64,000 bases of DNA, taken from positions 126,028-190,027 of the forward strand of contig NW_001799013.1 in the NCBI RefSeq assembly GCF_000165425.1, in the 5' to 3' direction. Made by a program: the position numbers and the translations under genes. The notes beneath the pieces were generated by a model. The model was not told the DNA's origin and did no database searches. It saw only the letters and a list, made by a program, of their open reading frames with translations. The stretch is from Paramecium tetraurelia. Its lineage: Eukaryota > Ciliophora > Oligohymenophorea > Peniculida > Parameciidae. The first letter of the stretch is position 1. Each line of letters opens with the position of its first letter. Below, piece by piece: positions 45,960 to 52,252 of this stretch.

Positions 45960-47345
45960 ATTCAAACTAAAAATTAAAATTTTTAAGCCAATTATCAATC
46001 AGAAACGTTTGAGAACTTCATTCACAATATTTGGTGAATTAAAGCAAATTGATGAAATATATCTAACTTTTATATTCACAAAATGATGATACTATAAGGT
46101 TTAATGATATTGGTCTACTTAATTTAATTTTTATCAACAATATTGAATTTTCTAAAATGAAGCATGAAAGTTAAACCTACAATTAAATTATTTAATATAA
46201 CAAGAGTGAATTTTTGCTGATCAATAATCAAACTATCTTAAAATATGATTGTATTTTTGATGCATAATATAACTTTGGGCCATATAATTCATGTGTTGCC
46301 TCGACATCATAAGATGAAATGATTTATGCTTTATGTCAAGTTAATTCGAACTATTAAATAATCAGTATCAATTTCTCAAATCCCACATATAACAATAATT
46401 TATATCCAAATCTAATTGTGAGTTTACCAAATTAAAGTTTTAGAGAAAATGCTTGGTTAAGAATATAAAATAATCAGCTTTATATTTGGAACGATGAGAA
46501 CCATAATAATGGAGTTCATATGTATTTTATTAACTAAAGACAAGAATAGCAGGGTTAATTTATATGCATAAGTGCTTCATTTGGATTCTAGACACACCAA
46601 ATTTAGATGGGTAATAGCTTCATAATAAATTATATGTATTTTAAACCAATTCATAAAGATTAACTATATTACAAATTTGCTAAGATAGATAATCAGTCAA
46701 TATTTACACATAGGGATGAAAACTCTATCCTTTTAGAAAGCATTACCCATCAATATTTTTCATTTGACACAATACCTATGATTTTTAGAAAAAATAAAGA
46801 AATTATTTTAATGATTTCAAATTCTAACTTTAATTTAATCGTACATTCCTTTGGTAATTAACTGAAAAATCCAATTAAACACATATGATTACTCTATATA
46901 ATATCTCTTATTATGAAGATTTTAATGTTGAGAATATTAGTTTTTAAACTCCACTCCTTTTTATAGGTGGATATCTTTTTACACTTAATTAGACTTTGGT
47001 TAATGCGTTCTCATTCGTAGCATAAAATAATTCATTTGGAAACATATTAATTCTGTTGAATAATGGCAGCACTTTAGAATTCTCACTTAATATATTCTCT
47101 CTAAAAATAGATTTAACCAAAGTTACAAAAGAGATATACCAATAAATTTATAAGCTTATAATTACTACAACTCAAATTCAGCTTATATTATATTGAAATT
47201 TCAAAAAATGCATTTATTTGAAAGTACATCATTTTACATTTTGCTTGGAATTACTATAATTGTATTAGTAACTTCATATTTAGTATGCTCTGCTTATTAA
47301 AGTAGTAACATATATGGAGAAGAAGATTCAGATGATGAATTATGA
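45960..47345 (+). pseudogene. Decayed single-pass membrane protein with beta-rich ectodomain
   Basis: A beta-rich reading (TILKYDCIF, LIVSLPNQSFRENAWLRIQ, LYIWNDENHNNG) from about 46010, with ATG available at 46157, continues to TGA near 46888. It then resumes in a second frame (MITLYNISYYEDFNVENI) and a third (SNSAYIILKFQKMHLF). The end carries a membrane helix (FYILLGITIIVLVTSYLV) and an acidic tail to TGA at 47345. No introns explain the shifts, and TGA interrupts the upstream part. Either a young pseudogene or consensus errors. Confidence 0.5.
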
Positions 47346-48253
47346 ATATCATATAAAATTTTTAATATAAAATTATAAATTGTTAAAAGATATTTTTGAT
47401 ATTAAATAAAATAAAATTTCTTGAAAATATAGGATTTAATAAGAAATATTCTAAAGATTATATTTAATTAACTCACGGACATTTTGAAACAATAAAATAA
47501 TAGGAAAATAATCATCCAATTTGCTTTTAACTTTATTACATTAATGATAATAAAGGAATTTTATTGTGCAAATTTAGTATCATTAAATATTTTAGACTTT
47601 TTGGAACCAATGGTAATTAAAATGAAATAAAACTTTGATTCGCAAATGAAGTAGTTTTTCAACAATAGAATTTTCTGAATCAATAAAGATTTAATTGTAA
47701 TTGACTGATGAGCCATTTGAACACTTCACTTCAATTTATTTATCATTTAAATATATTTTATAATACAGAATTCCAATTGTAATTTAAGTTCTACTAAATA
47801 CAATCCTTGAAATTTAATTAAACCACCTAAAATGTGTATTTAGTTACAATAGGATCACAATTAGATTTTACATCAAAATTTATTAATTAATCCAAACTTG
47901 ATTTTTTCAAATATAGTATTACATTATAAATTATCATTCTTAGTATTATAATATCATTGTAGTTATTTGGTTTTGACATATTAATTAAAATTAAAAAAAA
48001 ATAAATTAATTATAATGTAAAGTAGTCTTGTTCTACTGTTCTCTAATAATCTAAATATTATTATCAATTTTAGTTTTGAAATTAACATATTCAGATCAAA
48101 TTAGGATTATAATTTTTGATTAACAAGTAGAATTTAATGAGTATTTAAAACAAATGTTTGTAAATGTGTACGTGTGTTATACTAAATTATGTATTCATAT
48201 TCATTAATATTAAGAGGGCAATTATAATAAATATTAATAAATAAAAAGATACA
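47346..48253. other. Intergenic
   Basis: 908 bp, AT-rich, no gene recognised. Confidence 0.5.
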
Positions 48254-49485
48254 ATGGATAAAGAGAGAAAGGAAGAAGGCTAAGTATTAAAAGAAAAGTC
48301 CAATGCATATTATTGGAAAGGTGGATTATCGATATACGTTAGGGAATTCTTTACAAAAATTTGAAAGATTTGAAGAAGCTTTAGAGGCCTATGAAGAAGC
48401 AATTTGCGCACTACCAACAAATGTTGACGCAATTAATGGCAAAGGTGGAGATCTATATCTATCAATAGGATTTGTTTTAGATATTTTGGGTTAACATGAG
48501 AAAGCTATTGTAGAATACACAAAAGCAATTGAAATTGATCCAAAATTTATTCTTGCTTATAACAATAGAGGTACTTATTTATGAATATTATATAGGATTG
48601 GCTTATGATAAGATGTCTAATTATCATAAGGCCATTGAGGAGTACACAAAAGTATTTACAATTGATAAATAATACTATACATCATATTTCAATCGAGGTG
48701 CATATTCATAATTATGAAATAGCTATTGCCTATTATAAATTAAAAAATTATGATAGAGCTGTTGAAGATTTCTCAACTGTGATTGAGATTAATCCAGAAT
48801 ATTATATGGCATATTATCACAGAGGTAATTCTAAGAATATTATAATAAGGTGAGATTTATGAGTTGTAGAATAAAATGGATTAAGCTTCGAAGGATTACG
48901 TAAGAGCTTCTTAGCTTGAACCATGTTTAACCATTCCATATCCACAATTCAGTTCTAAATATTAATCTTATTCATTAGAAAAAATTCCCGAAAAGAGTTC
49001 ATATGAGACATCATATCAACACTTATCATTAGCCATATAGGACTAACCAGACAATATTTTGGCTTATAACAATAGGGGTTAAATTGTTATATTATCAATA
49101 GGATTTGTGTTATTTGAAATGAATTAACCACTTGAAGCTTTAGAAAACTATAACAAGGCAATAGAGATAAAGCCAACAATAGCGACATTATACTACAATA
49201 GAGGTGAGAATACAGACTTCATAATTAGGAAATATTGCTTATTTTTTAAATCAATTTGAAAAGGCTATTGAGGATTACTCATAGACAATTTTAATTGACC
49301 CAAACTATGCCAAAGCATACTGCAATCGAGGTTTTATTCGAAATTAATAACAAGGAACTATTTATAAATAGTTAGAAAAATTTGATGAGGCTAAAAAGGA
49401 TATAGAAATTGCCGTTAAAATTGACCCATAAATAACAACAAAAAGTGAATATAAAGAATTAATAAATAGGGAATTTTTCATTTGA
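48254..49485 (+). CDS. TPR-repeat protein built from one-repeat exons
   Basis: 345 residues, eight introns: 48321-48342, 48445-48468, 48571-48595, 48698-48722, 48825-48849, 49078-49101, 49204-49228, 49331-49354. Exon sum is in frame. Each repeat is a canonical 34-residue TPR (KAIVEYTKAIEIDPKFILAY, then NNRG). Six of the internal exons are exactly 102 nt, and one is 228 nt. Every internal intron falls at the same place, phase 1 after (N/Y/F)-(N/H)-R-G, so one exon equals one TPR. Several donors are GTG or GTT and two acceptors are AAG. TPR arrays bind peptides or chaperones; no catalytic domain is present. A further 102-nt TPR exon persists downstream. Confidence 0.88.
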
Positions 49486-49544
49486 CTTGAGCCTTTTTGC
49501 TCTGCCAAAAAATCCCATTAGTTATTATTAAATTAATATTACTA

Positions 49545-49825
49545 GTACAAAATATTGAAAAAGCTGTTGAGGCTTTCACTGGTGCAATTGAATTATCCCC
49601 ATAAATGACATAAGCATATTAATAAAGAGGTGAACATTATTAACCTATCAATAGGAATAGCATATTTCATTTTGAAATAATATGAGGAATCCCTTAAAGA
49701 CTTTTCTCAAGTGCTCTTACTCGAACCAAACAATAAAGAAGTACATTTTTAAATAGGTGATGATTTGCATCTTATAGTTAGGATGTGTTATTGTTTATTA
49801 ATTAGTGCATAGTGCTGCCTCCTGA
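49545..49825 (+). pseudogene. Relic TPR exons downstream of the TPR gene
   Basis: Two more TPR pieces with the same architecture: IEKAVEAFTGAIELSPQM, intron 49630-49654, a full 102-nt exon (49655-49756: IAYFILKQYEESLKDFSQ), intron 49757-49781, then CVIVYQL and TGA. No start and no intron linking it to the TPR gene, which ends at 49485. It is probably the remnant of a longer or duplicated array. Confidence 0.55.
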
Positions 49826-49992
49826 TTTATTATGATTATCATTATAAATTTCATATTGATTGTTATATTTTATTCTCGCTCCCTGTTTCATTATTGTCCT
49901 TATCCCATTTCTTGTTCTTTGCTCTTTATTATCTAATGACCTTATTTCTTATCAAAATTTATAAGGAGGAACTTATGACAGTAAACTCACTA

Positions 49993-50377
49993 TTTATTAT
50001 AAATTATTGATATTTTAAAAATTGATAGAATTTTTGATCAGCATAAAATAGTTAAATATCAATAAATAAGAAACAAATTTGAGTAAAGCCTAGTTTAAAC
50101 CAATTAAATTTAGAATTAATGCACAAAAATCATTAAAATCTATGAAATTGAAAACTCAATTTTATCAGAAGCAACTTCGATGACAAGTAAATATTTGTAT
50201 TCAAAATAGGATTTATAACTTTATTTAGAGGTTTTATAAATTATTGTGTAAATCTCAATTTTTTACAAATAGGTTGTCTCAGGAGCGCTTGATAAATCGA
50301 ACTTTGAGTCAGCATCATTAATGGCAAACTCATCTCCCTATTTAATTATTAGGGATGAGTAATACAGATCCATTTGA
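49993..50377 (+). other. Protein-like frame without start, unknown
   Basis: Continuous frame (LLQIIDILKIDRIFDQHKIV...ALDKSNFESASLMANSS) ending in TGA at 50375-50377. No ATG near its beginning. May be the C-terminal part of the ancestral TPR gene, or a remnant. Confidence 0.3.
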
Positions 50378-50767
50378 ATCAGATATATTTACAATTAAAT
50401 GAAATTAATTTAATAATTTTAGGATTGTAAGCTAAATTGGTTTAATGATACTTTTTTACTTTTTATTATTATATTAATGATAGTATCAATATTGTTGAAA
50501 TTATATATTTATAAATAATGATACATATATATAACATAATAATTCTTAATTATAACTATGAACTTTACAAAGATGATAAATAATAATAATACATTATAGT
50601 AATATACAACAAAAGACAATCCTTTTTGTACAACCCTTCTTCAATTATTATTGAAAAATGATTAGACTTTAAATTTCAATATTTTTAAGATTTAATTACA
50701 TTAAAATGCCTATTTAATGGTTTTGCTGATTATAAATATTAATAATTTAAAAATCAATAAAAAAAAA
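50378..50767. other. Intergenic
   Basis: 390 bp AT-rich, nothing recognised. Confidence 0.5.
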
Positions 50768-52252
50768 ATGAAGAATAATTTCAATTAAAATTTAGACAAA
50801 AAATATGACTCTCGGTTATTGCGAGTGAGGGAGAAAGGTCAGAAAGCTGCAATAAAAATTGAACTTTTATCGGATGACATTAACATTAATCAATAGGTAA
50901 GTGTGCATTAAGAAATATATGATGTTATTGCATAGACTACGAAATGGACTGAACAATTAAACATACAATTTCTACTACTAAAAACGGCATTACTGCGAAA
51001 ATTGGATGAAGCCTTATAATATGGTAAATAATGGTAAGCAAGTATTATAGAAATGTAGATATAAATCGAAAAGGACAAGATTGAAATTCAGAGACAACAG
51101 CAGATTGCAAAACAAGATTATAAGGAGAAAATTCTACACATTAATACATCTTTCTTACAAAAAATAATAAAAGCCTTCGAAAATTTGTGGAAAGAAATAG
51201 AAGAAAATAAAATTGATGTGGTTTTTAAAGATTTTAATATTTACTTATAACAGATATAGAAAAACGACACTAGTAAAGAAGAATACAAATTAATTAATTA
51301 ATTTGATTAAAAGGAAATCTGTTATAGCATAGCATTTGATCGGTAAAGGAATATCATGGTTAGCGGTGCACAGGATGGGATCAAGATATGGAGATTCCAG
51401 GATGGAAAGAAAATAGAGTGTATATAATAGATTAAAGGAGATAGTGAAATAGATTATGCAACTTGTTTAGTTTTCAGCCAAAAAGCTGATTTTTTTATAT
51501 CAGGTAGCTTTGATTCATCTATTAAACTATACTACAATTAGAATGATAAATGGCTAAAGTAGACTTGTAAAACATCCCACAGCGGTCTCGTAACTTGTGT
51601 AATTTTAACTAATTAAGAGGATTAATTAATATCTTGCAGTTAGGATTTATCTATTTTTATTTGGAAAGTAAACCTTACTTATAAATCTATCTAATTTGAT
51701 TAGTAATTGAAAAGACACGAAAAAGTTGTCCTTAGTCTCTGTATCAATCAATCGGATACTGAGTTCGTGTCGACAGGCTAAGATTAAAAGATTATTATCT
51801 GGAAAAAAGATGCTAATAAGAAATGGATTTTTGATTAATTGATATATCATTCACACTCTGATTTTGGATGTAGAGTTTCTTATATTACAGATGACGTTAT
51901 TGTTTGGCAATAAAGCAATCAGCGATATATTCATTTCTATTAATTAAAAAATGGCATGTATGTTAAAAAGTAGTCAATCCAATTTCCATAGTCAGAAAGT
52001 TAAACTGAAAACTTTTAGTTCTTATTCCCAACTATATATCATAGAAAAAAATAAGTCTTAATTCAAAAGGTCAACAAAAAAATCTATTTTATTCGTTTTG
52101 ATGACGGAACTTAATAATATAAAGTTGACTCTAGTACTATCTCATGCTCCAGTAGTGCTGTTTTTGGTAATTTGACCTAAGATGGCAAATATTTAGTCAT
52201 TTGGGATTCTTTTTTGAAATAATTTTCAGTTTATGAATTATTTTATGAATGA
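50768..52252 (+). CDS. WD40 protein with coiled-coil N terminus
   Basis: 494 residues, intronless. Residues ~1-180 are helical and charged (KIEKDKIEIQRQQQIAKQDY). WD40 blades follow: VSGAQDGIKIWRF, FISGSFDSSIKLYYN, LISCSQDLSIFIWKV, FVSTGQDQKIIIWKK and a final LVIWDSF. Blades end in the usual W/Y-K patterns but lack many GH dipeptides. It shares layout with the protein at 44063, minus the Cys/His module. Likely a scaffold. Confidence 0.8.

Follow-up and report, generated by a model that had tools for sequence, protein, structure and literature searches.

On the forward strand of a 64-kb stretch of the Paramecium tetraurelia genome (69 Mb in 231 contigs, 25.5% G+C), the whole of which is referred to here as the window, lies a TPR gene that occupies positions 48254-49485. 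Its 9 exons and 8 predicted introns, which encode 345 amino acids, were spliced by hand and with a splice-aware TPR model written for this analysis; the model forbids TGA, permits a shift of frame only via GT-AG introns, and places the stop at TGA 49483-49485. The gene is of Paramecium type: TAA and TAG encode glutamine, TGA alone serves as the stop, and the GT-AG introns lie in the 20-36 nt range. Its product is a TPR repeat protein (Pfam TPR_1, E 1.9e-69, 8 stretches) whose best solved relatives include engineered TPR proteins and O-GlcNAc transferase. Judged from this fold, the protein is most likely a TPR solenoid that serves as a protein-binding scaffold. The features of the locus, together with three WD40 arrays discussed below, are collected in Table 1.

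Table 1. Exons, introns and relic units of the window TPR gene (window positions), and intronless WD40 arrays elsewhere in the genome (contig:positions)
Feature	Position	Strand	Description
Exon 1	48254-48320	+	67 nt; same terminal repeat residue as other exons; hand splicing
Intron 1	48321-48342	+	22 nt, phase 1; placed by hand, not called by model
Exon 2	48343-48444	+	102 nt; hand splicing
Intron 2	48445-48468	+	24 nt, phase 1, terminal TATCAATAG; hand and model
Exon 3	48469-48570	+	102 nt; hand splicing
Intron 3	48571-48595	+	25 nt, phase 1; hand and model
Exon 4	48596-48697	+	102 nt; hand splicing
Intron 4	48698-48722	+	25 nt, phase 1; hand and model
Exon 5	48723-48824	+	102 nt; hand splicing
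Intron 5	48825-48849	+	25 nt, phase 1; hand and model
Exon 6	48850-49077	+	228 nt; sole long internal exon; hand splicing
Candidate ninth intron, inside exon 6	48952-48978	+	27 nt, GT-AG, phase 1, expected site; by eye, not called by model
Intron 6	49078-49101	+	24 nt, phase 1, terminal TATCAATAG; hand and model
Exon 7	49102-49203	+	102 nt; hand splicing
Intron 7	49204-49228	+	25 nt, phase 1; hand and model
Exon 8	49229-49330	+	102 nt; hand splicing
Intron 8	49331-49354	+	24 nt, phase 1; model
Exon 9	49355-49485	+	131 nt including TGA; 49355-49482 open; model
Relic 5'-truncated TPR unit	49546-49629	+	similarity from 49546, model frame from 49557
Relic intron	49630-49654	+	25 nt, terminal TATCAATAG; hand and model
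Relic TPR exon	49655-49756	+	exactly 102 nt, open frame; hand and model
Intron-like stretch 3' of relic exon	49757-49781	+	25 nt; model read through, no intron called
WD40 array L070	C219:146000-148600		unit of 126 bp (42 codons), 13.8 copies; intronless, in a single open frame
WD40 array L071	C213:3500-6000		unit of 126 bp (42 codons), 14.3 copies; intronless, in a single open frame
WD40 array L072	C227:328300-330500		strongest period 126, one open frame, no introns

The initial annotation of this DNA, made from the sequence alone, held that six internal exons each measure exactly 102 nt and that the internal introns all lie in phase 1 at one residue of the repeat. Hand splicing and the model together bear out both statements: eight of eight introns (22, 24, 25, 25, 25, 24, 25 and 24 nt in order, all GT-AG) are in phase 1 and fall within the codon of TPR residue 8, and the exon is a circularly permuted repeat, beginning at residue 8 of a TPR and ending at residue 7 of its successor. 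The single exception in length among internal exons, exon 6, possibly comprises 102 nt, a ninth intron of 27 nt and a further 99 nt, as read from its sequence. At the DNA level this anatomy is firm. Five of the eight predicted introns are not multiples of three, and the TPR frame requires their removal; the frame makes no such demand of the other three. These, introns 2, 6 and 8 of 24 nt, are multiples of three whose retention meets no TGA, and a retained intron of this kind would insert eight residues within helix A. Such stop-free introns of 3n length amount to 3/8 in this gene and to 65/356 array-site introns genome-wide; a deficit of 3n introns without an in-frame TGA has been reported for Paramecium (PMC3464196, citing Jaillon 2008).

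Beyond the stop codon, a relic holds another exon of exactly 102 nt, as had been noticed at the outset, with intron-like sequence on each side. Past the 3' intron-like stretch, the frame terminates at TGA 49823-49825. The relic units (49546-49781) are taken as decayed units of the window-gene array. Just 5' of them, at the place where an intron and the start of an exon are expected, an imperfect inverted repeat (GGGAATTTTT ... AAAAAATCCC) can be seen by eye at 49469-49517, spanning the stop of the gene.

The introns of the window carry marks of their own locus. Among ten of them (the eight of the gene and the two that flank the relic exon), three end in TATCAATAG, two in the gene and one in the relic, compared with 0/397 same-site introns at other loci. 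The shared ending recorded in the initial annotation is confirmed, though for three of ten introns. GTG donors occur in 6/10 (4/8 within the gene) and in 10/397 at other loci, a count that may be lowered by a slight preference of the model for GTA donors; donors other than GTA make up 6/8 in the gene and 110/397 elsewhere. The inner parts of the window introns are 0.44 identical; sets of introns taken from different loci average 0.34 and attain the window value in 1 of 1000 draws. Whole introns give 0.53 in the window and 0.48 between loci, the former attained in 15 of 1000. Over the five 102-nt units compared, exon identity is 0.56 and intron identity 0.58 (between loci, 0.50 and 0.46), and likeness is lower at third than at second codon positions (0.50 vs 0.64). 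A point against joint copying in this gene is that, over six exons, exon similarity tracks that of the upstream intron (0.57) but barely that of the downstream intron (0.16). The gene represents an older array, the introns of which still bear locus-specific marks. A search of the genome at the DNA level matched only the gene itself, and a protein search, in which 117 of 189 candidates were scored, gave no close paralogue, identity reaching 35% in the best match apart from the gene.

The same layout recurs throughout the genome. The TPR model was run over both strands of 60 stretches (L010-L069) and of window positions 47001-51000; the loci were chosen from listed TPR matches (148 and 101), with two added from a short pattern search. 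The latter, tried as a means of counting the class, was useless for counts (42 matches, vs 50 with the pattern reversed), and led to one array (L050) and one locus without an array (L051). Of all introns called, a set containing a few false ones, uncertain in number, with which the model may have bridged disruptions, 405/453 lie at residue 8 in phase 1, and 299/343 successive intron-to-intron distances are 102 nt. In the 33 locus-strands with at least three introns at the site, the proportion is 391/395, though introns that share a young array are not independent of each other. The 23 ordinary TPR loci, each with 136 TPR residues or more, have 9/53 introns at the site and the others scattered. 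The ratio of 33 to 23 is a biased frequency, as the first batch of loci was partly chosen for array-like spacing. Array-site introns measure 20-36 nt across the genome. These loci are exon arrays in the wide sense, with uniform exon length and intron phase along a tandem array.

The pattern was compared with that obtained under a blind control, in which the profile was neutral at residues 7-9 and GT-AG pairs of like length received equal scores, and under decoy splice signals. The control and the decoys were applied to the window and 28 loci, which make up 29 of the 33 array locus-strands. Under the blind control, 364/376 introns stay at residue 8 in phase 1 and 288/322 exon lengths are 102. 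With CT-AG as decoy, 1/35 introns lie at the site and 0/12 exon lengths are 102; the corresponding counts are 1/29 and 5/10 with GT-TC, and 28/109 and 9/63 with GA-AG. Two of the three decoys abolish the site pattern and the third weakens it, and exon length is not wholly clean. A genome-wide class of one-exon-per-repeat TPR genes is firm at the DNA level. The opinion first offered, that such growth is unusual in a genome with 25-nt introns, was partly right: the layout is frequent here (33 locus-strands), and a parallel in Tetrahymena LRR genes, considered below, has been published.

How the units multiplied is seen best in the youngest arrays, which consist of one tandem unit of 127-130 bp, exon plus intron. 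Exons and introns were compared for 102-nt units at loci with at least four of them (21 rows). At L010 a 129-bp unit is repeated in tandem to 34.3 copies with 87% matches; the exons of this array are 0.82 and its introns 0.80 identical, with 0.83, 0.85 and 0.80 at the three codon positions, and no clear higher-order period was found in it by unit lag. Exon and intron identity are likewise nearly equal in L011 (0.71/0.71), L040 (0.81/0.80) and L041 (0.70/0.69). Introns have drifted further than exons in L012 (0.82/0.71), L025 (0.77/0.68), L039 (0.71/0.63) and L013 (0.73/0.56), and also in L044 (0.67/0.51), L021 (0.63/0.46) and L020 (0.71/0.43). Among arrays whose exons are alike, about half have introns that clearly fall behind the exons in likeness. 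Pairs of units identical throughout, exon and intron, were found in three of 11 arrays examined (three pairs in L010, one each in L039 and L040). The about equal likeness of exon and intron in the youngest arrays means that both were copied together as DNA, and it is only there that joint copying is plain. The early suggestion that exon and intron were duplicated together holds directly for these arrays, and for the window gene indirectly, through the shared features of its introns. Most other old arrays have no intron memory: intron identity within a locus is 0.45-0.55 (mostly 0.45-0.50; 0.55 in L018), vs 0.46 between loci.

Old arrays seem to have changed little. Four paralogous pairs (L017/L024, L015/L016, L022/L046 and L027/L047) have the look of whole-genome duplicates; between their members 46 units can be aligned in order, and the intron state is concordant in 44 of them, both exceptions being first units of model segments. 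The model left five units unpaired. L024 has three of these, two of them at its start; another is the last unit of L022, and the fifth, an internal unit of L027, could be a true gain or loss. The third unit of L024 gave the appearance of a one-unit loss from L017, which was rejected on inspection by eye, the unit persisting in L017 (3927-4025) with an in-frame TGA where its partner is open. This TGA marks either a broken unit or an assembly error.

The young arrays also differ in position, 8/15 of them lying within 5 kb of a contig end (L013, L026, L039, L040, L044 and L065 are examples), vs 1/16 old arrays and 1/23 ordinary TPR loci; young and old are divided here at a within-locus identity of 0.53, a cut set after the data were seen, and several of the coordinates are rounded and typed by hand. 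The count omits the window locus, the minus strand of L017, L036-L038, L051, L060, L067 and other small pieces. Some contigs begin inside an array, and the excess may reflect assembly breaks. It also recalls the subtelomeric position described for young LRR genes of Tetrahymena (PMC6564038).

The likely history of the window gene can be assembled from these observations. It is considered, with a probability of about 0.83, to belong, as one of the older members, to a class of spliced tandem-repeat genes found across the genome, which grew by the copying, as DNA, of units made of an exon and its intron. The founder would have been a TPR unit whose residue-8 codon was interrupted in phase 1 by a single tiny intron, and the whole unit (the 102-nt exon with its intron, about 125-131 bp) would then have been copied head to tail, most likely in the germline nucleus by unequal crossing-over, slippage or gene conversion. 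Copies would stay in frame because the exon has 34 codons and is bounded in phase 1 on both sides; an intron that is spliced out would be free to drift in length. Once growth ended, units would diverge, some introns would be lost or become hard to see, and units at the edge would decay into relics such as that at 49546-49781. Growth of the window gene itself by this route is suggested by the locus-specific marks of its introns.

A different account has introns inserted independently, again and again, at one preferred proto-splice site (AAAG/G or AGAG/G) in the residue-8 codon, with selection or a bias of insertion filling the site in repeat after repeat. The proto-splice consensus is indeed visible by eye at the junction in many window units, and in old arrays introns that share a locus resemble one another hardly more than introns from separate loci do. 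Insertion into a preferred site sits poorly, however, with the rarity of introns there in ordinary TPR loci (9/53), with the joint copying of exon and intron in the youngest arrays, and with the common, locus-specific ends and donors of the window introns, and this account is judged improbable. Somewhat less improbable, yet still unlikely, is that the window array is a decaying locus, a pseudogene rather than a working gene. Its unusual donors (GTG, GTT), its three stop-free 3n introns, the relic units 3' of its stop and the lack of a close paralogue in the DNA and protein searches of the genome would all suit such a locus. Against decay stand 345 codons open across nine exons, eight Pfam TPR_1 stretches, and the lower likeness of third than of second codon positions, as under protein constraint.

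It has also to be asked whether the layout exists for alternative splicing, each skipped exon leaving one TPR fewer and so tuning the scaffold. The arithmetic stated in the initial annotation is right, in that the six 102-nt exons are all symmetric (1-1), and exon skipping is one of five event types analysed in P. bursaria, where intron retention and alternative 3' sites are the most frequently regulated (PMC12862383); skipping may occur within the genus. The splicing machinery of P. tetraurelia is described as recognising only very short introns, which precludes exon skipping, and this transcriptome study saw no case of it in that species (PMC5663052). The WD40 arrays of the same genome, moreover, expanded without introns. 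Alternative splicing as the reason for the layout is thus very improbable, and the growth by skipping that had been envisaged is unlikely.

What the intron contributes to such copying is best considered beside the other repeat families. Since the WD40 arrays are large and have no introns, an intron is not needed for array growth, and it is probably a passenger. L070 and L071 share a stretch 5' of the array that has, by eye, the appearance of a pentapeptide-type repeat. For Ank_2, many of the matches listed span about 90 residues (several repeats) in one frame. The one LRR model searched, LRR_6, has 5 matches in the genome, a scarcity that, for this model, contrasts with the LRR-rich Tetrahymena genomes of PMC6564038. 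TPR units are often 127, 128, 130 or 131 bp long while the exon remains constant at 102, and the intron may free the length of the unit from the rule of multiples of three. The intronless WD40 arrays resemble the TPR arrays in growing by tandem units within genes, and differ in the 126-bp unit and the lack of introns.

The closest published parallel lies in another ciliate. The LRR genes of Tetrahymena with 90-bp exons (Xiong et al. 2019, PMC6564038), as described there, share with the present genes exon arrays of exact length, a single intron phase, duplicated intron/exon units, nucleotide similarity in the young arrays and the presence of many such genes in one genome. The Paramecium genes fall outside that class as defined (LRR, 90 bp, phase 2), being TPR genes with 102-nt exons and phase-1 introns, and their introns of 20-36 nt are shorter than those of the Tetrahymena genes, which peak at about 257 bp. 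The Tetrahymena arrays are reported to be associated with a LINE-like element, and a single origin of uniform exon-array repeat genes was suggested by those authors (PMC6564038). In P. tetraurelia, TPR and WD40 tandem repeats have been reported in the somatic-destined genome, as has expansion or recombination of these repeats (Arnaiz 2012, PMC3464196; Guerin 2017, PMC5405496); the passages of the two papers on this subject concern repeat expansion, and exon-intron layout is absent from them.

Tandem exon duplication in animals is a less apt comparison than the Tetrahymena parallel. The introns between animal tandem exon duplicates are long. The animal cases (PMC9013439 and others) resemble the present one in having copies of an exon within a gene, and differ in their reported link to mutually exclusive splicing (PMC9013439). 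No report of one-exon-per-TPR arrays in Paramecium was recognised in the open-access literature searched. The arrays are a second ciliate case of exon-array genes, with another repeat, another exon length and another intron phase, and a second case, in a lineage of very short introns, lets one ask what favours this form of gene. Within one genome, most repeats of the TPR arrays contain an intron and those of the WD40 arrays contain none, an internal contrast that makes the role of the intron in repeat growth directly testable. A broader proposal is offered tentatively, as a possibility rather than a probable account: ciliates may at least twice, from unrelated repeats (LRR in Tetrahymena, TPR here), have built genes as spliced minisatellites. 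In these, units of exon and intron would multiply, chromosome ends being perhaps the main setting, and the arrays would with age turn into ordinary multi-exon genes, the intron permitting unit lengths (e.g., 127 or 130 bp) that would break an intronless gene. If this is true, much of the intron gain in the repeat genes of the lineage would be a by-product of repeat amplification.
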